DNA of 64,000 bases, taken from Candidatus Sabulitectum sp. (GTDB taxonomy: Bacteria; Fermentibacterota; Fermentibacteria; Fermentibacterales; JCC-6). How positions within the stretch are numbered: the first letter of the stretch is position 1; every line of letters starts with the position of its first letter. Made by a program: the position numbers and the translations under genes. The notes beneath the pieces are model-generated. The model did not search any database, was not told where the DNA came from, and worked only from the letters and a program-made list of their open reading frames with translations. The stretch is from contig JAIOSV010000016.1 of the NCBI GenBank assembly GCA_021107435.1, forward strand, positions 1 through 64,000. Direction: 5' to 3'. This document shows, one piece after another, positions 7,984 through 63,917 of this stretch.

Positions 7984-10599
7984 ATGACCGATTCTATACA
8001 GACACTGGAAAGCAAACTAAAATCGGCAACCGATAAGGAACGTATTGATCTTCTAATTGATCTTTCACTGAGAAATTTCAAAGTCTCTCCCGTTAAAGCC
8101 CGTTCCTATGCAGAAGAAGCCCTTAGTCTGTCAGCATCCAACGGCTCCAAACCCCTGAAAGCCAAAGCACTCAGAACACTTGGCAGAGCCTGCCTGGGGC
8201 AACTTGCTCATGCTGAAGCCCTGAAACACCTTCACAGCTCTCTTGCCATTTACGAGAAGCTTGATTCAAAACAAGGCATTGCCGAGGTACTTTGTAACAT
8301 CGGGCAGGTGTATCAATTAGGCGGAGAACAGGATAATGCTCTTGACTACCTTGGAAGAAGCGGGATGCTTTTTACAGAACTCGGTGACAGGAAACAGCTT
8401 GCCAACATCCTTAACTCAACGGGCCTGGCCCTTCTCAGCGCAAACAGAGATGAAGAAGCCCTGAAGTGCCTGACCGAATCACTTGAAATGGCTATCGAAG
8501 AGAATAATTCAAAAACAATCAGAAGCGCCACCAATAATCTTGGTATGCTCCATTACAGGAATGGTGACCTGGAAAAGGCTATTGTCTGCTTTGAGAAAGC
8601 TGCGAAACTCAGTAAGCAGGAGGGAGAACTGAGATCACTTGCGGGCAACTACATCAACATAGGCACAAGCAATGTTCAGCTTGGCAATTACATCAGCGCC
8701 CGGGAATATCTGGACAAAGGCCTTAAGCTGGCTGAACAGTCAGAAGCGCTGGATTTCATGATGCAGGGATACCATTCCCTCTGTGAGTTATACGAAAAGG
8801 AAGAAAATTTTGGAAAGGCACTTGAATGTCACAAGAAGATGAGCGAACTTGAAAGGAAGCTCTTTACTCTGGAGAAAAGTAAAACCATTGCCGGGATTAA
8901 GGCCAGATACCAGACAGAAAAAGCTGAGCAGAAAGCAGAGATACACCGCCTTAAAAACATAGAACTGGTCGAAAAGAAACAACTCATAGAGGCGCAGGCT
9001 GAATCGCTTCAAATAGCCTATGTGAAAATCAGTATCCACGAGGACGAACTAATCAAGAAGAACGTGGAGCTTGAAGAACTTCTTAAGGAAAAGAACAATT
9101 TCCTCAGCAGAATGGTAGAACACATCTCTGACGGAGTGATGATTGATGATCAGAAGAGCAGGATTCTTTACGCCAATGACCGTTTCCTGGAAATATTCGG
9201 TTACTCCCGGAATGACCTTCTGAATATGGATTCTTTCAAATGCATTACTCCTGAATGGAGAGAAAAAGTACAGCGTTACCGCACGCAGTACCTTGCTGGC
9301 GAAGACGTTCCAGACAGATTTGAGTTCGAAGGCCTTAAGAAAAGCGGACGCAGAATCTGGCTGGAGGTTGGTGTTGCTCCGGTTGAACGGGACGGCGTTT
9401 CTCAGGGCATCCAGTCTCTGGTGCGGGATATCACCAGTAGGAAGATACTTGAGGCTCAACTCCTGCAGTCGCAAAAACTTGATGCTGTCGGAAGACTGGC
9501 GGGAGGAATCGCGCACGACTTCAACAACCTGCTCACTGTGATAACGGGGCATACAGACTTCATTCTTTTAGATATCGCTGAAACCCATCCCATGTGGCCG
9601 GATGCTGAGGGAATAAGCAAAGCCGCCGACAGAGCCTCACTGCTCACTCAACAGCTTCTTGCATTCAGCAGACAGCAGATATTGCGGCCGAGACCCCTGA
9701 ACCTCAGCAAAATAGTCTCGGGGCTCCAGAGAATGCTGAGCAGGCTGTTGAGTGAGGACATCCGGATTGTCACATCCTTCCCGCAGGACGCAGGATGCGT
9801 TTTCGCCGATGAAAGCCAGATCGAACAGGTAATCGTAAATCTGGTGATAAACGCAAGAGACGCCATGAAATCAGGCGGCAAGCTCACTATTGAAGTTCGC
9901 GATCTTGATATTGACGAGCACTCACTGGTAATCAATCCTGATCTTCATCCGGGCCGGTACATGCAGCTCTCTATCGGCGACACCGGATGCGGAATGGACT
10001 CGGAGATACAGGCTCGTATCTTCGAACTTTTCTTTTCCACCAAACCTGGCGGAAAAGGCAGCGGTCTGGGTCTTGCCATGGTGTACGGCATAATTAAGCA
10101 GAGCGGTGGAGTTATTGAGGTAAGCAGTGAACCCGCTGTCGGCACAACCTTCATTGTGTACCTGCCCAGGGTTGAAGAAGAACACATTCAAGATGAAGAG
10201 CAGACTGTACAAAGCTCTGAATCGGGCAAGGGAGAGAACATCCTTCTGGTTGAGGATGATAAAGCCCTGAGAGACGTTGTTGAGCGATATCTTGCACGAG
10301 AGGGATACAAAGTGGTATCTGCCGAATCGGCGGAAGAAGCGTTAAAGCTTTGCAAAAACACCAGTGAAAAACTCCAGCTCCTTCTTACCGATATTGTATT
10401 GCCCGGCATCAACGGGGTAATGCTTGCTTCTCAGCTGAAAGAGACCGGATTTAACGGCCGGATCCTCTATATGACGGGCTACACGAAGAATGAGATTATC
10501 CCTGATGACATAAAAAAAGACGGCAAGCGGCTGCTGGAGAAACCATTCAGTCTTGCTACCCTTCACCAGAAGATAAGGAATTTACTGGATACAAGGTAA
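7984..10599 (+). CDS. TPR-PAS hybrid histidine kinase with receiver domain
   Basis: This protein of 871 residues (ATG 7984, AGGGAG upstream) has no membrane segment, so it is cytoplasmic. TPR repeats fill about residues 35-290 (AEALKHLHSSLAIYEKL and similar units). A charged coiled coil follows (290-365), then a PAS domain (about 370-485: ILYANDRFLEIFGYS). The kinase core is of the HDFNN type (LAGGIAHDFNNLL, phospho-acceptor His511), with an ATPase domain ending GSGLGLAMVYGIIKQSGG. A C-terminal receiver has Asp803 in LLTDIVLPG. Phosphate may pass from His511 to Asp803 and on to an unseen phosphotransfer protein. The signal is unknown; the TPRs suggest a protein partner. The start at TTG 7957 is a less likely alternative. 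Confidence 0.88.
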   Translation: MTDSIQTLESKLKSATDKERIDLLIDLSLRNFKVSPVKARSYAEEALSLSASNGSKPLKAKALRTLGRACLGQLAHAEALKHLHSSLAIYEKLDSKQGIAEVLCNIGQVYQLGGEQDNALDYLGRSGMLFTELGDRKQLANILNSTGLALLSANRDEEALKCLTESLEMAIEENNSKTIRSATNNLGMLHYRNGDLEKAIVCFEKAAKLSKQEGELRSLAGNYINIGTSNVQLGNYISAREYLDKGLKLAEQSEALDFMMQGYHSLCELYEKEENFGKALECHKKMSELERKLFTLEKSKTIAGIKARYQTEKAEQKAEIHRLKNIELVEKKQLIEAQAESLQIAYVKISIHEDELIKKNVELEELLKEKNNFLSRMVEHISDGVMIDDQKSRILYANDRFLEIFGYSRNDLLNMDSFKCITPEWREKVQRYRTQYLAGEDVPDRFEFEGLKKSGRRIWLEVGVAPVERDGVSQGIQSLVRDITSRKILEAQLLQSQKLDAVGRLAGGIAHDFNNLLTVITGHTDFILLDIAETHPMWPDAEGISKAADRASLLTQQLLAFSRQQILRPRPLNLSKIVSGLQRMLSRLLSEDIRIVTSFPQDAGCVFADESQIEQVIVNLVINARDAMKSGGKLTIEVRDLDIDEHSLVINPDLHPGRYMQLSIGDTGCGMDSEIQARIFELFFSTKPGGKGSGLGLAMVYGIIKQSGGVIEVSSEPAVGTTFIVYLPRVEEEHIQDEEQTVQSSESGKGENILLVEDDKALRDVVERYLAREGYKVVSAESAEEALKLCKNTSEKLQLLLTDIVLPGINGVMLASQLKETGFNGRILYMTGYTKNEIIPDDIKKDGKRLLEKPFSLATLHQKIRNLLDTR

Positions 10600-55797: not shown

Positions 55798-57357
55798 TTA
55801 CAGATCTATCTCAACTGACGCACTTGTGCCAGAGGTTCCATTCCCTTGAATCGGTCTTGCTACGAAGTAAACCTCTCCGTTGACCGATCCATCTGAATAT
55901 GTCTCAATATCGATGTCCCATGCGCCCGCGTTAGCTCTGGTGCATTCGATTTCCAGGTAAGGATTGAAGTCTCCGCCGTCATCATCGCTGAAGTATTCTT
56001 CTCCATCCGCATCCATGACAGTAAGAGTCAGATCGATATCACTCTCTGCGAATATCTCATAGGTGTTACCGGATTCAAAAACAAGACTCCAGTAAACATT
56101 CGAGTGCATCTGGAAGGTATCCTCCAGGGGAGCAAACCCGCTCTCACGAACCATCTGTGTTCCCATGCTGTAACGGAAATCCACAGATTCCGTGGAACTG
56201 TCCGAATAGGGCACCACTATGGCACTGTAGAATCCTGAAGAAAGCTGAAGAACAAGCTGAGGATCAAGACCGTCAGGTCCGTCATCGTTGTAGTCTATCA
56301 TCACATCCTGATCATCAATGATAGCCATTTTTGTGTCATCAACGCACGAGGCATCAAAGATGTACTCGCCTTCCTCCTCAATCTCGAACTCAAACACAAG
56401 GGCCTGATCTTCAGGATAAACACCGTAGTAGTCGCCAGCCTCGGGCCAGTAGTTCATGACCATTGTGCCCTCTCGGAATTCTCCATCGAACCATACATCC
56501 ATTTCGTCAACATTAACGACTTCAATGGTCATATCGTCGAGATCAAATTCTGTGATCTCAATGTCAAACTCCGCGTCATCTGATCCTGAGTAGGTATTCA
56601 CAACAACAAGGTAGTCTCCTGCCTCAAACTCACCGGAGCAAACAGGATTGGAACCATCTGTATCGTCATCATAGTCCACATATTCAAGATCGTCCCCGTC
56701 AACCAGCAGAACAGCCATTATACAGTCAACATTGGATTCAACAGCAATTCTGAGCCATTTTTCCGCTCTTACTTCAAGAGGGAAAACTCTGCAGGTTTCC
56801 CAGCTGTCGCGGTAGAGTTCATCCACATCAAAGAGAATGTCTTCCCACTGATCGTTTTCCTTGTCTCTCAGAATGAAGGCTTCCATTTCCTCATTAATTT
56901 CAAGAACCCATTCGTAGTCATCCGCTTCGTCAACCTCAAGAAGGAATTCGCCGTCATCTCCCGCAATATCAAAAATGATCACCCTTGCGCCGTCAGGAAC
57001 TTCGTCCATGGAAACAAAAGCATCGAGTTCTTCATCCCAGTCATCTCCCACCACGACAATATCACCTTCAGCGTCAACAACAACCATCACCGGATCAATG
57101 TCATCAGCCTCCACGAACAGTGATATGCCCTCTCCTGCCTTCAGCGGGAATTCTATTGCTGGCCAGTCATCTTCCACCGCGAGACCCATCATAAGAAGCG
57201 CTTCTTCCGCATCCGGAAGGAGCTCTTCCAATTCCACTCCTTTATCAAGGTCGCCTTCAGCTGTATCCCCTGCTCCAAGACCTCCGCCTCCCAGAAGAGA
57301 ACAACCAGCCGTACCCATAAGTAACGCCATTAATACCGGAACTGTCTTTTTGAACAC
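55798..57357 (-). CDS. Highly acidic lipoprotein
   Basis: This 519-residue protein starts at GTG 57357 with GGGGAGG five bases upstream, placing a lipoprotein signal (VLMALLMGTAGC) at the N-terminus. The mature part is extremely rich in Asp and Glu with repeated beta-type segments (GISLFVEADDIDPVMVVVDAEGDIVVVGDDWD; YIFDASCVDDTKMAIIDDQD; NTYEIFAESDIDLTLTVMDADGEEYFSDDDGG), probably several tandem pre-peptidase/PPC-like beta-sandwich domains. Many acidic turns could bind calcium. It ends in VEIDL with no sorting domain. Role is unknown; surface adhesion or ion binding are guesses. Confidence 0.65.
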   Translation of the reverse strand: MFKKTVPVLMALLMGTAGCSLLGGGGLGAGDTAEGDLDKGVELEELLPDAEEALLMMGLAVEDDWPAIEFPLKAGEGISLFVEADDIDPVMVVVDAEGDIVVVGDDWDEELDAFVSMDEVPDGARVIIFDIAGDDGEFLLEVDEADDYEWVLEINEEMEAFILRDKENDQWEDILFDVDELYRDSWETCRVFPLEVRAEKWLRIAVESNVDCIMAVLLVDGDDLEYVDYDDDTDGSNPVCSGEFEAGDYLVVVNTYSGSDDAEFDIEITEFDLDDMTIEVVNVDEMDVWFDGEFREGTMVMNYWPEAGDYYGVYPEDQALVFEFEIEEEGEYIFDASCVDDTKMAIIDDQDVMIDYNDDGPDGLDPQLVLQLSSGFYSAIVVPYSDSSTESVDFRYSMGTQMVRESGFAPLEDTFQMHSNVYWSLVFESGNTYEIFAESDIDLTLTVMDADGEEYFSDDDGGDFNPYLEIECTRANAGAWDIDIETYSDGSVNGEVYFVARPIQGNGTSGTSASVEIDL

Positions 57358-57675
57358 CTCAACCTCCCCTTTCAATTAAGCCTGCAAATCCTCAACCTGC
57401 AGGATTTATACAATTCCCACAGATAATCCATTCCATTCAACGGCAACACTACACTATTATAAGAAACAGGCCGGGGGAAAAGATGTCCCTCTTAACCTTT
57501 CAAGGGAACCGCAGTCCTTAGTAGTATCCACATACAGAAAACATGGTATTCCCTGGCAATACTGTCCGGCAACATCTGCTCTTTACCTATAAATCTCCCA
57601 ACGCGGAAGACACTGGACATGGAGCCCTTTTACTGAAATAATTGTATTACATGTTTATCGCTCTAAGGGGGCCAA
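57358..57675. other. Gene-free stretch between divergent transcripts
   Basis: About 318 bases between the acidic lipoprotein (minus) and the Roadblock/GTPase cassette (plus). The cassette's Shine-Dalgarno sequence (AAGGGGG) is at its right end, and the region is AT-rich near 57635-57660. A short imperfect repeat, CCTGCA...TGCAGG, lies at 57381-57404. I cannot assign a promoter with confidence and see no gene. Confidence 0.4.
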
Positions 57676-58185
57676 ATGAACGAATCAGTTGTTACCGGAA
57701 GTAACGGTGCTTCTATCAATGAAACACTGGCCAGGCTGGTGGAGAAAACAGAAGCTTTGACTGCGCTGCTCATCAGCAGACACGGTATTTGTCTCGGGCA
57801 GGCGGGCGGAGGAGCCAGACTGAATGCTACTGCTCTGGCCGCTCTGGTTGCGGGAATGTTCTCCGCAACCAAGGAGGTTGCCAATATCGTTGGCGAGGAA
57901 CAATTCTCAATTCTGCTGCAGCAGGGCAAGAAGAGGCACATTCATATTTCTCTCATCGGTGAAAAATCGATGATGGTGATTGTGTTCGAGGAGTACTCCC
58001 GTATAGGAAGAGTCAGGCTCGAAGCAAAGAAATGCAGCTCAACGCTGGTTCGACTGGTGAATCAGGACAGAAAGGATCAGGAACAGGCTATTCAGGATAT
58101 TTCGATTCCTGATTTCAAAGAGTACGCACTTAATCTTATTGACAGGATTTTCGTTATCGGAGAGGAAGAGGATGCCTCACCTTGA
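57676..58185 (+). CDS. Roadblock/LC7 protein, MglB-like
   Basis: This 169-residue protein has the Roadblock/LC7 pattern of GTPase-activating or scaffold proteins: LARLVEKTEALTALLISRHGICLGQAGG, LNATALAALVAGMFSATKEVANIVGEE, FSILLQQGKKRHIHISLIGEKSMMVIVF. Myxococcus MglB is the GAP for MglA, and this gene directly precedes and overlaps an MglA-type GTPase by 14 bases. It is probably the GAP or partner of that GTPase (inference from pairing). The last 40 residues (DRKDQEQAIQDISIPDFKEYAL) extend beyond the core domain. Confidence 0.82.
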   Translation: MNESVVTGSNGASINETLARLVEKTEALTALLISRHGICLGQAGGGARLNATALAALVAGMFSATKEVANIVGEEQFSILLQQGKKRHIHISLIGEKSMMVIVFEEYSRIGRVRLEAKKCSSTLVRLVNQDRKDQEQAIQDISIPDFKEYALNLIDRIFVIGEEEDASP

Positions 58186-58768
58186 CTTGAATAACAGGCA
58201 ACTGGTATTCAAAATCGTCTACTTCGGGCCGGGGATGAGTGGAAAAACCACCAATCTGCTGTTTATTCACAAGAAGATTTTTGACAAGTACAAGGGTGAT
58301 ATGGTCATTCTTGACACTGAAGAGGAACGAACGCTCTTCTTTGATTTCTTCCCGGTTTCACTTGGTACAGTTCAAGGCTTTTCCCTGAAAATCCATCTTT
58401 ATACTATACCGGGACAGGTGTTCTACGAGGCGAGCAGACGCATTATTCTTGAAGGCGCGGATGGCGTTGTTTTTGTCGCCGATTCCTGCATCGAACGATT
58501 TGACGATAATGTTGACATGTACAGAAGAATGACAACCAACCTTGGCAGTTACGGCGTTGATCCGACTTCATTCCCTATAGTTCTTCAATACAACAAACGG
58601 GATTATGATGAAGTCATTCCACTTGGCCAGTTGGAAGCGATTCTTGAACTTCCGGATGATCTTCCTGTTACTGAATCAATAGCCACATCAGGAAAAGGAG
58701 TTATGAGAACACTGCAGCTGATCAGCAAGGAAGTCATAAGAAACTTTCAGCTTGATGGCTCAGCCTGA
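58172..58768 (+). CDS. mglA: MglA-type small Ras-like GTPase
   Basis: This 198-residue GTPase starts at ATG 58172 behind GAGGAAGAGG. Visible G motifs are FGPGMSGKTTNL (P-loop about 18-27), LDTEEERTLFFDFFP, YTIPGQVFYEASRRIILEGADGVVFVADS (switch II and beyond, as in MglA, lacking the Ras Gln order), and QYNKRD (NKxD, base recognition). MglA proteins set cell polarity, gliding and type IV pilus or secretion placement. The cassette partners are Roadblock proteins, a DUF4388 protein and a DnaA-like ATPase. The cell process here is unknown. Confidence 0.92.
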   Translation: MPHLDLNNRQLVFKIVYFGPGMSGKTTNLLFIHKKIFDKYKGDMVILDTEEERTLFFDFFPVSLGTVQGFSLKIHLYTIPGQVFYEASRRIILEGADGVVFVADSCIERFDDNVDMYRRMTTNLGSYGVDPTSFPIVLQYNKRDYDEVIPLGQLEAILELPDDLPVTESIATSGKGVMRTLQLISKEVIRNFQLDGSA

Positions 58769-58793
58769 AGTAACGAAAGGAGCGTGATAACGC

Positions 58794-59579
58794 ATGGCCT
58801 TCAACGGCAATTTGAATGAGTTTGGCGTTGTTGCGTTACTACAGCTGCCTGGCACAAACCATCTTAGTGGCAGACTGATTATCAAACAAGATGAAGGTAC
58901 CGCGGAATTCTACTACAGCAAGGGCAGGCTTGTTCATGCGGCACTGGGTGAGGTTTCCGGGAAAGAAGCACTGGTTGAAGTAATTGACTGGGTTGAAGGT
59001 GATTTTTCTTTTGATTCCAGCAGCAGCATTGATGAAATAACAATTCATCAGGATATTCAGAATACTCTTATGTGGGCCTTGAAGGAAAGAGACGAAAGGC
59101 AGAAACTGAAGGACGAAGAAGAGCAGACAGCCAGAGAGCTGGCAGCAGAGGAACTGGCTGAAGAGTTGGCAGCTGAAGAACTGTCAGCTGAAGAACTGGC
59201 AGCTTCGGCTTCCAGCCTGCCTGAGCCTGTTGTAATACCCCAGTCTCTGATGCAGAACTCTACCGGTATTCTAATCGCATACCTGATAAACCCGAAAGGT
59301 CAGATAATCGCGGAAGCTGAAGCCGAGTCTGACTTCATTGAAAAAATCACACCCCTTCTTACCGCTGTTAGAAGCTTCATTCGCAACTACCCGGACAGGG
59401 TTATAGGAAAAACCTTTATAGAGGATACAGAATTTACACTGGCCCTTTCAGGGCTCAATACCAAGTTGACTGCTGTTATTTTTGTCTCGCCCAAAACCAG
59501 GCTGGGAGTTCTTTCCATCGAACTGGGCAAATTCATGAGAGCTCTCCTGACAAGCAAGCTGGAGGTTCTGAATGAGTGA
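58794..59579 (+). CDS. DUF4388 protein with Roadblock-like C-terminal domain
   Basis: This 261-residue protein has an N-terminal DUF4388 (PATAN-like) domain at about 1-100 (FNGNLNEFGVVALLQLPGTNHLSGRLIIKQDEGTAEFYYSKGRLVHA; ALVEVIDWVEGDFSF), a domain that pairs with response regulators and GTPases in motility systems. An acidic helical linker (about 105-140) is built of EELAAEEL repeats. The C-terminal part (TGILIAYLINPKGQIIAEAEAE; LTAVIFVSPKTRLGVLSIELGKFMRALL) looks like a divergent Roadblock fold. It follows the GTPase by 25 bases and overlaps the next gene by 8. Confidence 0.72.
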   Translation: MAFNGNLNEFGVVALLQLPGTNHLSGRLIIKQDEGTAEFYYSKGRLVHAALGEVSGKEALVEVIDWVEGDFSFDSSSSIDEITIHQDIQNTLMWALKERDERQKLKDEEEQTARELAAEELAEELAAEELSAEELAASASSLPEPVVIPQSLMQNSTGILIAYLINPKGQIIAEAEAESDFIEKITPLLTAVRSFIRNYPDRVIGKTFIEDTEFTLALSGLNTKLTAVIFVSPKTRLGVLSIELGKFMRALLTSKLEVLNE

Positions 59580-60972
59580 TAAATTGTATTTGAAAAACAG
59601 CGGAAGACTTCTTCATTTCGTGGAGTTCATGCAAATGTGCGCCGATTCAGGATATATCTCTGAATCGACTGCCAGGGAGATGTGCCTTTTCGCAAAGTAT
59701 CAGGGGGGCGTAGAGGCTATTCCTGCTTTTCCGGGAGATCATCCGGACAACAATGATCGTTTCACCGATCTTCTTGCCTTCACCCCTCCCGATGAACGCT
59801 CTTTCGATAACTATGTGGTAACTGAAGAGAATTCCTATGCCGTGGAGCTGGCACGAACAGTCGCTTTGATCCCAAGAATATGGAAGAGTATCTCTCCCAT
59901 TCTTTTCCACGCGGGAACCGGCCAGGGCAAAACCCATCTGCTTTCAGCCATTGCTTCCACTTCAAGGCAGAACTCACTTTTCCTCAATCTCAATGATTTG
60001 AGGATGGGTTACAGATACTGCGTTAAGACGAATAAGGAAAGTCATCTTCTGAGCTGGATAGTCAGTCATAATTTCCTCCTCCTTGATGATCTTCACTTTG
60101 CAAGTGGAGACATTGATTTTCAGCACTTTCTCTGTTCTGTTTTCAACAGAATGCCTCAAGGCAAAAGTGCTATTGTACTCTGCTCAAACTCAGAAGTTGA
60201 GAGTTTGCGGAATTTCGACAGTACATTCTATTCCAGAGTATCTTCAGGAATTTCTGTTGAGTTGAAGGCCATGGATATCAACGGCAGAACAGCTATACTC
60301 GAACGAATGTTCAGCAATACAGGCTTCGGCCCTGGAGCGGATGTCATAAATTACATTGCTACCACGATTACGCTTAACATCAGAACACTTAAAGCCGCAG
60401 GCAGAGCTGTTCTGGCGCACCTTCTTGCCTCTCCTTCCAGAAATGGTATTTCTCTGGACAAAGTGACCAGCCTGTTAAACTCAATGAATCTTTGCGATCC
60501 CCTGCTGAAGAGCGATGCGGCAGCATCCGCGACTCAAGCCACTGCGGAACAAGAAAAGGATATCATCTCCCCGTACATTGTTGTTGACATAGATGATGAT
60601 GAAGAGGAGTCTGAAGATGAATTGAAATTCAAGCAGGCAATCGAAGCAAAAAGAGTTCAGGATACAGATGAAGCTGTTGCCGATTCATCTCCGATTGACT
60701 CACCGGCAATTACCTCTGAGATTGTTGAAAAAGATATTCCTGAAGAATCAGGCACTGTATCCGATTCATCATCTAAAGAACATTCAATCAACATGATAGA
60801 AAGCGCAACAACAGTAAACAGCCAGATCGAAGCACTCAAAATGGCAGCTGAAAAGAGAATTCAGCAACTGGAGATAAAAAATCCGGACAGCTCGGAAATT
60901 GCAAAACTCAGGTTTGCTATAGTCTTTCTGGATCAGGGCAAAATCGAGTCAGCAATGCTGGCCTTGAAATAG
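59572..60972 (+). CDS. DnaA-like AAA+ ATPase lacking the DNA-binding domain
   Basis: This 466-residue protein carries a DnaA/Hda-type AAA+ module at about 78-310. FDNYVVTEENSYAVELARTVA matches the start of DnaA domain III. Walker A is GTGQGKTH (115-122), Walker B LLLDDLHF (169-176), sensor 1 AIVLCSNSEVESL, and the box-VII-like DSTFYSRVSSGISVELKAMD follows. The lid helices resemble DnaA (LNIRTLKAAGRAVLAHLL). Domain IV, which binds DnaA boxes, is missing. Instead there is a long acidic region (about 325-420) and a helical end (IEALKMAAEKRIQQLEIKN...AKLRFAIVFLDQGKIESAM). It may be a GTPase-linked regulator rather than a replication initiator (inference). Confidence 0.75.
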   Translation: MSDKLYLKNSGRLLHFVEFMQMCADSGYISESTAREMCLFAKYQGGVEAIPAFPGDHPDNNDRFTDLLAFTPPDERSFDNYVVTEENSYAVELARTVALIPRIWKSISPILFHAGTGQGKTHLLSAIASTSRQNSLFLNLNDLRMGYRYCVKTNKESHLLSWIVSHNFLLLDDLHFASGDIDFQHFLCSVFNRMPQGKSAIVLCSNSEVESLRNFDSTFYSRVSSGISVELKAMDINGRTAILERMFSNTGFGPGADVINYIATTITLNIRTLKAAGRAVLAHLLASPSRNGISLDKVTSLLNSMNLCDPLLKSDAAASATQATAEQEKDIISPYIVVDIDDDEEESEDELKFKQAIEAKRVQDTDEAVADSSPIDSPAITSEIVEKDIPEESGTVSDSSSKEHSINMIESATTVNSQIEALKMAAEKRIQQLEIKNPDSSEIAKLRFAIVFLDQGKIESAMLALK

Positions 60973-60983
60973 ACAGGTTGAAG

Positions 60984-61013
60984 GAAATTCCCATCTGAAC
61001 AATAGGGAATTTC
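60984..61013 (+). repeat. Hairpin between the DnaA-like gene and the last Roadblock gene
   Basis: GAAATTCCC (60984-60992) pairs exactly with GGGAATTTC (61005-61013). No T-run follows. It could be a weak terminator or a processing site that sets the level of the downstream Roadblock mRNA. Confidence 0.4.
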
Positions 61014-61111
61014 ATCGGGTAGAGAAGAGACAGACGAATTGCTTTTCTTTTTTCTACCAGCAGGTTATGATAGTATAGGTATACGGAGAACCAAACAGGA
61101 AAGGACTCTTT

Positions 61112-61462
61112 ATGAACAGCAATGAGATTCTTGCTGCACTGGTGGAAGTTCAGGGAATTGACGCCGCAGTTTGTGTCGGGCGTGATGGCTTCGTTATTGA
61201 TGCTGTAGCCGGAGCCGGAGCCGATGTTGATGCAATAGGAGCAATGGTTTCAACGGGTCTTGGATCTGCTGAAAGTGTTGGAAAAGAGCTTGGTGTTGGT
61301 GCACTCACCCAATCAATGATGGAATACACCGATGGTGTAATCGTCATGACTGCAATTGGCGAAGATGCTATCCTTGCAGTAGTTGCTGCAACCAATGCCA
61401 GTCTCGGCAATGTACGCCTTCAGGTCAGAAAAAGGAAAAGGGAGCTTGAGGAAGTTCTTTAA
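61112..61462 (+). CDS. Roadblock/LC7 domain protein
   Basis: This 116-residue, single-domain protein starts at ATG 61112 (AGGAAAGGA upstream). EILAALVEVQGIDAAVCVGRDGFVIDAVAGAGADVDAIGAMVSTGLGSAESVGKELG is the typical N-terminal half, and YTDGVIVMTAIGEDAILAVVAATNASLGNVRLQVRKRK is the C-terminal half. It is closer to the common short bacterial Roadblock proteins than to the first gene of the cassette, so the two may bind the GTPase differently. It follows the DnaA-like gene by 139 bases. Confidence 0.88.
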   Translation: MNSNEILAALVEVQGIDAAVCVGRDGFVIDAVAGAGADVDAIGAMVSTGLGSAESVGKELGVGALTQSMMEYTDGVIVMTAIGEDAILAVVAATNASLGNVRLQVRKRKRELEEVL

Positions 61463-61499
61463 CTCTTCCTTCTTTCTATAACATTGGCTGATTTACAGG

Positions 61500-61531
61500 A
61501 ACAGGCCCGGCAAAAAGACGGGCCTGTTTTT
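61500..61531 (+). terminator. Rho-independent terminator
   Basis: AACAGGCCCG (61500-61509) pairs with CGGGCCTGTT (61519-61528) around GCAAAAAGA, followed by TTTTT. It ends the Roadblock/GTPase cassette and stands opposite the convergent peptidase gene. Confidence 0.88.
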
Positions 61532-61544
61532 AGAAATCTATACG

Positions 61545-63917
61545 CTACTCAACAAGCATTACGCTCGCTGTGGATGTTTCAGAACCCTGTCTCAGACGAA
61601 GGAAATAGATACCGGGCGAAAACCCGGACATGTCAATGTTAACTGCTCTCGACCCATTCAAGGTTCCGCTGTAAGGAGTGGCAACCATTCTGCCGCTGAG
61701 GTCGAATACATTCAATACAGCATTCCCGTCTCCGCTGACAATCACAGAAGCAGAGAATGTTACAGGATTGTTTGATATCACGCTTAATACTGTTGCAGTG
61801 CCCTGGCTGCCCTCTACGCCTGCGCTTATGCCGTCAGGATAGTGTGTTCCGTAAGCAGTTTTGCGCGGAAGAGGAGTGGGTGAAACGGCATCAGGATCAA
61901 CGAAATTAACCATTGGATCTCCGTAAAGCACGTACTGCAGTGTTTCATCTACGCCGGTGGTAGCTCCCGGAGGTGTATAGATTGTGGAGATTCTGGCGTT
62001 GCTGTAAACGGCAGCTTCACCGAGGGTGAAGTCTTCTGCTGTTACAAGATGTACCCACAGGTTCCACCACCAGCCCGAGCCGTCGAATGAAACAGAAGCA
62101 AGACTTCCGATAGAACCGATTGCGCCGTGGTTGAGTCCTATCTCGTTCATGGATCCGTTTGCCATACTGCAAGCGTTGTAGGCAATAATTACAGAATGCA
62201 TGTTGTCAAAGTCTTCGTCGAGATCTGCCTCGTAATAATCACCACCTGCTGAACCGTCGTAAACCCTTCCGTCACTGTCAGGCCACCATGGATCCTCAAA
62301 CTCTATTAAGTAATCGTCCTGGGCAATTCCGTTGTCTTCATCGAGAACTGCGATTACCGTTCCACCCCCATGGCAGGAAAAGTAAAGGAATATGGATCCG
62401 TCAATCACATCCTGCACAAAACCGCAGAGTTCAACAGCAGGCTGGGCCGGATGGGTACCGGTGCCCGGCATCGCTCCGCTGTGAAAGGCGGTATCGTAAC
62501 TTTCTCCGTAGAAGGTGGCGTACTGCCCGGGACAGCCCCCGGTATCAGCAGCATCGCTTGTTTCAGGCCACATGGGGTCGAGACCCGGTTGAGAAGGCGG
62601 CCAGCCGGGGAAGTAGCCGTTCGCGGCAGTCCAGCCCTCTTCAGGCCAGCCGAATATCTCGTTCACAACAAAATCCGAGTACCAGTTGTCCGAGAAGCTG
62701 AAGTCAGACCAGTAATGAACCTCATAGGCATTCATGGAAATAGTAACATGGTCGGGACGTGGATTTGCATGTATCACAGCGTTATAGAGGGCTCCACGGT
62801 TAATAGTTCCAATATTGTCAATCCACTCCAGAGGGAACCTTCCCGGAACTGCGCCGTCTCTCGTCAAATCAGAGGGATCACCTGTGATCGAACGTTCAAA
62901 TGTCGCGGGGAAAACTGTCTGGTTGGAAAATGCAAGTACATACTCCAGCTGATCATCCACAGTTCCTCCAACACCGTGCAGGAATGTGTAGAATTCTGCG
63001 GCAAGGGCTTCGGAGCCTGATGCTCTTATACCGGTAACTGGTCTCTCCAGCTTAGTGAAACTATCCGGTATTGATCGTCTCAGATCAGCAAGAGCGGTGA
63101 AGGCAAGACGGTCAAGACCCTCGGGAAGCTTAACCGCATATCCGGCGTAACGAGCAGCTGCCAATGCTGCTGGAAGAGCCTGCATCTCCTCCTTGTACAC
63201 GCAGGCTACTGCCTGTCCGGTAAGAGCGATTGTAGCGGGGAGCAGATCGGAAGCGCTGTCAAAATCTGTAACGGTGATGGACATTGCAGCAAGGGCATCT
63301 GTCACATCAGTAGAAACTGTACCGGGGTAGTCAAACAGAAATACCTCTGTAACTCCCATGGAAGTCAGAACCTCCACGGTGGCAGTCCCAAGGACAGTAC
63401 CGTCTGTCCAGAGAAGAGGGCAGTTATTGTTGGCAGCCCAGCTTGCTGCTGCCGCCGCACCGTTAATGTATTCTTCATCAGTATCCGACATCACGCAAAT
63501 TACAGCCTCAGGCGTAGAAGGCCATTCGGTAACTGCAATTTCAGAGGCAATCTCCTCGCATGTTCCAGTATAAATTAATTCCTCGCTGTATGGAACCATG
63601 CCCTGAACAATGGTTTTAAAAGAGGGCTCAACATTACCGATGAAGATCACGCTTCCGCTTTCTCCAACACCACTCAAATAGGTTGCCCAGTCCTCAAGAG
63701 TATAGTACCCGGATTGAGAATCCGCGCCATCAGTAACGAGGAGAGAACCATAGGAATTCCCTGCCTCCTGAAAGTAGAGAGCCGGAATGGCAGCGAAAAA
63801 GTTGTATACAGTAGGCAGGGACGCTTCATCCACATGCACAACCGCGCAACGTCCGAAAAAGTCAACCCCGAAGGCTGACAACGCAAGCACTGCAAGAATG
63901 GCAAAAGTGAGTTTCAT
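61545..63917 (-). CDS. Secreted gingipain-like (C25, clan CD) cysteine peptidase
   Basis: This 790-residue exported protein has a signal peptide (MKLTFAILAVLALSAFG). A region at about 135-245 resembles cell-wall-binding repeat 2 units (AAAAASWAANNNCPLLWTDGTVLGTATVEVL; VTEVFLFDYPGTVSTDVTDAL). The peptidase domain follows, with His516 in FLYFSCHGGG and Cys583 in IIAYNACSMANG, the His-Gly and Cys pairs of gingipain/caspase-like enzymes. The C-terminus (AVLNVFDLSGRMVATPYSG, FSPGIYFLRLRQG) is a type IX/FlgD-like sorting domain. It is probably secreted through the outer membrane and cleaves proteins; specificity is unknown. Confidence 0.78.
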   Translation of the reverse strand: MKLTFAILAVLALSAFGVDFFGRCAVVHVDEASLPTVYNFFAAIPALYFQEAGNSYGSLLVTDGADSQSGYYTLEDWATYLSGVGESGSVIFIGNVEPSFKTIVQGMVPYSEELIYTGTCEEIASEIAVTEWPSTPEAVICVMSDTDEEYINGAAAAASWAANNNCPLLWTDGTVLGTATVEVLTSMGVTEVFLFDYPGTVSTDVTDALAAMSITVTDFDSASDLLPATIALTGQAVACVYKEEMQALPAALAAARYAGYAVKLPEGLDRLAFTALADLRRSIPDSFTKLERPVTGIRASGSEALAAEFYTFLHGVGGTVDDQLEYVLAFSNQTVFPATFERSITGDPSDLTRDGAVPGRFPLEWIDNIGTINRGALYNAVIHANPRPDHVTISMNAYEVHYWSDFSFSDNWYSDFVVNEIFGWPEEGWTAANGYFPGWPPSQPGLDPMWPETSDAADTGGCPGQYATFYGESYDTAFHSGAMPGTGTHPAQPAVELCGFVQDVIDGSIFLYFSCHGGGTVIAVLDEDNGIAQDDYLIEFEDPWWPDSDGRVYDGSAGGDYYEADLDEDFDNMHSVIIAYNACSMANGSMNEIGLNHGAIGSIGSLASVSFDGSGWWWNLWVHLVTAEDFTLGEAAVYSNARISTIYTPPGATTGVDETLQYVLYGDPMVNFVDPDAVSPTPLPRKTAYGTHYPDGISAGVEGSQGTATVLSVISNNPVTFSASVIVSGDGNAVLNVFDLSGRMVATPYSGTLNGSRAVNIDMSGFSPGIYFLRLRQGSETSTASVMLVE

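Follow-up and report, generated by a model that had tools for sequence, protein, structure and literature searches.

Among the closest described systems is the MglA/MglB module of Myxococcus xanthus, which works with MglB/RomY and RomR/RomX (PMC9481161, PMC3000849) and resembles the locus analysed here in that an MglA-type GTPase carrying Thr78 is combined with a Roadblock partner of MglB-like type and with other regulators. Compared with this polarity module, the present cassette has gained two more Roadblock-fold proteins (one of them by structure prediction) as well as a DnaA-type ATPase, and in related genomes it adjoins hydrogenase rather than motility genes. MglA/MglB-PATAN neighbourhoods were reportedly noted by Makarova in 2006. 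Such neighbourhoods, in which, as in the cassette, a PATAN/DUF4388 protein is encoded next to MglA and Roadblock proteins, are described together with conservons in a survey (PMC4316618), the main text of which makes no mention of DnaA or hydrogenase. The actinobacterial conservons (CvnA-D) are likewise conserved operons with an MglA-type GTPase and a Roadblock protein, but encode a histidine kinase and CvnC where the cassette encodes a DUF4388 protein and the ATPase. In eukaryotes, Ragulator-Rag and TRAPP combine several Roadblock-fold subunits with a small GTPase. Literature searches, confined largely to sources outside subscription journals, returned no paper combining MglA, MglB, Roadblock and DnaA, in line with the statement of the sequence-only reading that a DnaA-type module in an MglA cassette is undescribed, and the titles, abstracts and one passage retrieved for hydrogenase and Roadblock contained unrelated co-mentions only. 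The novelty of the MglA/Roadblock/DUF4388/DnaA/hydrogenase combination is thus provisional.

The window, the whole stretch of 64,000 nucleotides from Candidatus Sabulitectum sp. (Fermentibacterota) that was analysed, contains five co-directed cassette genes on the + strand between 57676 and 61462, followed by an intrinsic terminator:

57676..58185, + strand: RB1, MglB-like Roadblock protein, 169 aa (Robl_LC7, 1.4e-10, 41 bits)
58172..58768, + strand: MglA3, MglA-type small GTPase, 198 aa, start ATG 58172 (recognised by its motifs)
58794..59579, + strand: DUF4388 (PATAN) domain followed by a predicted C-terminal Roadblock fold, 261 aa (DUF4388, 5e-16, 59 bits)
59572..60972, + strand: DnaA-type AAA+ ATPase, 466 aa (Bac_DnaA, 2.5e-20, 74 bits)
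61112..61462, + strand: RB2, second Roadblock protein, 116 aa (Robl_LC7, 2.5e-14, 53 bits)
61497..61531, + strand: intrinsic terminator after RB2, 13-bp hairpin with T tract

The first four genes are joined by a 14-base overlap (RB1/MglA3), a 25-base gap (MglA3-DUF4388) and an 8-base overlap (DUF4388/ATPase), as had been claimed in the form of overlaps or gaps of 25 bases or less, and 139 bases separate the ATPase gene from RB2. Profile matches and hairpin statistics also bear out the earlier description of five co-directed genes closed by a strong terminator. The stem near 61497-61531 has a minimum free energy of -26.2 kcal/mol (z -3.7), none of 200 shuffles being equally stable, and was missed by a consensus scan because its loop comprises 9 bases. 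The cassette is flanked on one side by a long acidic lipoprotein-like gene (55798-57375) and on the other by a convergent gene (61545-63917) for a protein that is gingipain-like by eye and carries a T9SS-like C-terminal sorting domain.

MglA3 is the third MglA paralogue of the window genome and contains an intact P-loop (GPGMSGKTTN), R53, T78, the switch 2 motif PGQ82 and NKRD. In MglA, Arg53 is the intrinsic arginine, and both Arg53 and Gln82 have known roles. The mechanically called open reading frame opens at TTG 58139; judged by its fit to relatives, ATG 58172 is most likely the start, which therefore gives the overlap with RB1 and places Arg53, Thr78 and Gln82 at MglA positions (for Thr78, see PMC3000849). 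RB1 is 57-92% identical across the order and reaches 71 bits against the MglB-type NCBIfam model NF052242 (cut-off 200), a model apparently built for one MglB type only. In other genera RB2 is encoded upstream of RB1; in the window's genus the gene lies downstream of it or is found on both sides. The third protein had been called Roadblock-like. Its C-terminal half showed no significant match to RB1 or RB2 in sequence-profile comparison, and the claim holds at the level of predicted structure, where an AlphaFold model (mean pLDDT 82) has Roadblock topology and Foldseek matches to MglB (6hjm) and LAMTOR Roadblock folds (best E 4.5e-5). By this prediction the C-terminal half is a Roadblock fold, and the cassette therefore encodes three Roadblock-fold proteins.

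The ATPase consists of an N-terminal helical domain, DnaA domain III (about residues 72-305), an acidic linker and conserved C-terminal helices. The linker is unalignable apart from a SPYIVVDID-like motif, which matches a strict pattern in 17 of 20 relatives, occurs as near-variants in the other three and has no instance in control frames totalling 710,000 residues. Relatives retain Walker A, the Walker B aspartates, sensor 1, the arginine finger (R222) and sensor 2 (R271), so that the protein can probably still bind ATP and make its subunit contacts. The AAA+ domain is of DnaA type in both sequence and fold, with DnaA domain III (2z4r) as the best fold match of a low-confidence model (pLDDT 59). 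In contrast to DnaA and Hda, with which it shares the fold and motifs of domain III, the ATPase has its own N- and C-terminal domains and no match to the HTH, and is a separate paralogue where a canonical DnaA is present. It scores 133 bits against the DnaA equivalog TIGR00362 (cut-off 343.9), and a profile search found no match to the DNA-binding domain IV (PF08299); the suggested tie to the chromosome is not supported. The idea of a dedicated system had been expected to fail if this protein were the genome's only DnaA, and a canonical DnaA is encoded elsewhere in the window genome (G000:C11, Bac_DnaA 187 bits). A DnaA-type AAA+ domain with conserved arginine finger and sensor 2, and a match of 72 bits to the Hda model TIGR03420, would suit an Hda-like replication regulator that ties the GTPase state to DnaA or the chromosome; however, the match (71.6 bits) falls below the Hda cut-off of 194.8, no QLSLPL-like clamp motif is visible by eye in the N-terminus, and many well-completed genomes of the phylum lack the ATPase, all of which leaves this reading with next to no likelihood. 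In a phylogenetic tree, a single long-branched clade (support 100/100) unites the cassette ATPases and splits internally along genus lines, which fits vertical descent within the phylum.

Among 42 genomes of the phylum, 26 encode the ATPase, and 25 of these also encode MglA3 (Fisher p 1e-10, with genomes counted as independent despite their kinship). Both are encoded on one contig in 24 genomes, contig ends intervening in G049 and G016, and the linkage in relatives on which the earlier idea of a dedicated system depended is therefore present. MglA3 has a far higher score than the other MglAs; each of the 42 genomes contains at least one, and usually two, of these. Roadblock proteins are encoded in 27 genomes, all of them cassette members or related extra copies, and no others were found in the 42. 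Two of these Roadblock-encoding genomes lack the ATPase: in G002 the contig ends just after RB1, and G018 has a decayed cassette (L074, about 8221-9279) with two RB2 copies and a broken ATPase fragment containing several stops. The cassette genes are therefore kept or lost together, and families f1 and f3 share the gene order RB1-MglA-DUF4388-AAA, so that the proposal of a dedicated set including a DnaA-type ATPase gains from its conservation across two families and its behaviour as a unit. That it constitutes a dedicated GTPase/AAA+ regulatory module is a view to which we give about even credence. As a separate observation, the two further MglA paralogues lie ~10 kb apart around hslUV/topA/xerC in the window genome (G000:C113:36656-47174; L073) and are found across Fermentibacterota; as genomes without the cassette contain no Pfam-detectable Roadblock protein, these MglAs apparently have no Roadblock GAP.

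Outside the window's genus, the cassette continues into a Vhu/Mvh-like [NiFe]-hydrogenase operon, with RB2, RB1, MglA, DUF4388, AAA, p161 (161 aa), the small and then the large hydrogenase subunit, a ferredoxin bearing an additional domain and the maturation protease HycI forming one co-directed block. Cassette and hydrogenase operon are contiguous in 16 genomes; the AAA and p161 genes share a contig in 15 (with RB2 between them in G011), and in G016 MglA adjoins p161. p161 and the hydrogenase occur in the same 20 genomes, all 20 of which encode cassette genes, and the remaining four hydrogenase genomes (G000, G001, G002 and G004), which all belong to the window's genus, have cassette and hydrogenase on separate contigs. 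Seven genomes contain the cassette without this hydrogenase, namely six of the window's genus (g1) and G026, the contig of which ends at the cassette. Within g1 the two loci are mostly unlinked, and the hydrogenase link is therefore invisible in the window; in the window genome itself the hydrogenase is located at G000:C92 (L075), beside hyp maturation genes.

The hydrogenase subunits match those of Vhu/Mvh (VhuA 8.5e-87, VhuG 1.4e-66), and the L1 (RxCGxC) and L2 (DPCxxC) nickel-binding motifs, a small subunit and a maturation protease are present, also in the window genome (L075). Vhu/Mvh F420-non-reducing hydrogenases (HydDB group 3c) thus resemble this enzyme in their large and small subunits, but their partners in methanogens are HdrABC/MvhD, whereas here that place is taken by p161, by a ferredoxin to which an ATC_hydrolase-like domain (2.4e-5) is fused, and by the GTPase/AAA cassette. 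p161 is related to this C-terminal domain of the ferredoxin, and profile searches of the PDB with both returned nothing useful. To the V4R fold family, which includes Bet3 of TRAPP, p161 shows a very weak resemblance (E 0.058 at best, 0.06-0.07, in 4 of 14 members), and the likeness to the eukaryotic complexes does not extend to demonstrable homology of the whole. In genus g2 the operon continues into a cyclic-nucleotide-binding protein and often a GGDEF/TPR protein. Extra RB2 copies (L050, L046, L078, L080 and L081) are paired with a 152-aa protein with a profile resembling the hydrogenase-ferredoxin domain, which suggests that the 152-aa family is a recurrent Roadblock partner family.

The association recurs outside the phylum. 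In G327, RB2, a 340-aa protein, RB1, MglA and DUF4388 are encoded divergently from the same p161-hydrogenase operon, and no DnaA-type ATPase was found in the stretch examined. Conversely, two genomes of one genus of family f118 (G156 and G293) encode RB1-MglA-DUF4388 followed by an ATPase combining MshEN and DnaA-type domains, with no hydrogenase near the cassette; these two were the only genomes outside the phylum with a DnaA-type ATPase among 63 MglA neighbourhoods examined. The GTPase core, the hydrogenase and the ATPase can therefore be separated, and judged by these gene neighbourhoods the core has been joined to hydrogenase and to DnaA-type ATPase in more than one lineage. A search of 385 genomes with profile A1 at E 1e-33 identified no dedicated relative outside the phylum; it missed the f118 cassette, which was recovered via its MglA neighbours. 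Grouping the f118 and Fermentibacterota ATPases as one clade was not rejected (p-AU 0.52), and the data fit one or two recruitments. The C-terminal helices of the Fermentibacterota ATPase resemble those of the f118 ATPase and of a G327 cassette protein by eye, but equally good scores were reached by 148-404 of 1000 shuffles and by 46-70 of 1780 real C-termini, and the likeness was rejected; the f118-G327 pair was the only one to pass (0 of 1000 shuffles as good). Further DnaA-like proteins were observed in these surveys: f118 genomes encode a second one of 709 aa with a non-DnaA C-terminus (L071 3233-5362; L070), in L071 two genes from a PilT-like gene, and f15 genomes encode giant TPR-like proteins (L068 3473-8729 and L069; open frames of 1752 and 2145 aa) ending in DnaA domain III without HTH.

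Gene contiguity of cassette and hydrogenase is by itself no proof of physical interaction. The two blocks might be mere neighbours carried together without functional coupling, as could be argued from their separation in most of g1 and from g1 genomes in which the hydrogenase alone is missing; their direct adjacency in 16 genomes, the lack of any hydrogenase genome without cassette genes and the same association in G327 make this very unlikely.

The sequence-only reading had tied the cassette to polarity and motility. As in Myxococcus, MglA3-GTP could mark a pole and the DnaA-type ATPase disperse or cluster the GTPase complex: MglA3 has the catalytic residues and partner domains of MglA, PATAN/DUF4388 proteins are known neighbours of MglA/MglB (PMC4316618), MshEN, the domain on the f118 cassette ATPase, is typical of pilus ATPases, and T2SSE-family ATPases are encoded in all 42 genomes. 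This very universality weakens the motility reading, because pilus-type and secretion ATPases and other MglAs, usually two, are present throughout the phylum irrespective of the cassette, which thus does not follow motility. No pilus or gliding gene was seen adjoining the cassette, the conserved neighbour of which is the hydrogenase, and we consider a polarity function unlikely.

We regard a GTPase/AAA+ switch with the hydrogenase as its ancestral client as the best reading of the locus, and hold it with evenly divided confidence. MglA3 would act as a GTP switch cycling between GTP and GDP under RB1, its MglB-type GAP, and RB2 and the DUF4388-Roadblock protein would add Roadblock subunits to form a Ragulator-like platform. 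The DnaA-type ATPase may assemble or remodel this GTPase complex in an ATP-dependent manner, docking via one or more of three elements: the N-terminal helices, the C-terminal helices and the strand motif SPYIVVDID. The ancestral client, a Vhu/Mvh-like [NiFe]-hydrogenase with small partner proteins, could be reached via p161 and the ferredoxin domain akin to it, so that the module would tie nucleotide state to hydrogenase assembly, activity or placement. What the genomes show is the make-up of the cassette, its intact catalytic motifs, its gene order, its inheritance as a set and its contiguity with the hydrogenase; the GAP role, complex formation, the ATPase role, and hydrogenase control with its direction are what we infer from the locus. 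Since the cassette is unlinked from the hydrogenase in the window's genus and sometimes outlives it, it would there have had, or have gained, another role.

Some of these features would also suit a general signalling relay like the Streptomyces conservons, residing in the hydrogenase operon, sensing redox or H2 state and acting on other targets such as transcription. The extension of the g2 operon into signalling-type genes (cyclic-nucleotide-binding, often GGDEF/TPR), the six genomes in which the cassette outlives the hydrogenase and the pairing of extra RB2 copies with p161-related proteins away from hydrogenase favour such a relay, but the cassette has no conserved sensor kinase or DNA-binding output and every hydrogenase genome contains cassette genes, and we judge it rather improbable.

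More specifically, we propose tentatively, and with somewhat more doubt than conviction, that a Ras-like GTPase with a Roadblock platform and a DnaA-derived AAA+ protein directly governs a [NiFe]-hydrogenase, and that MglA modules of two or more phyla have acquired a DnaA-type ATPase. With only about ten genes, the set is small enough for joint expression and testing, and it offers a bacterial counterpart of the platforms of several Roadblock proteins that take part in Rag and Rab regulation in eukaryotes. MglA-type GTPases have so far been known almost entirely from polarity, motility and signalling; the hydrogenase-linked operon suggests that this family of switches also serves metabolism and that replication-initiator ATPases have been reused outside DNA.
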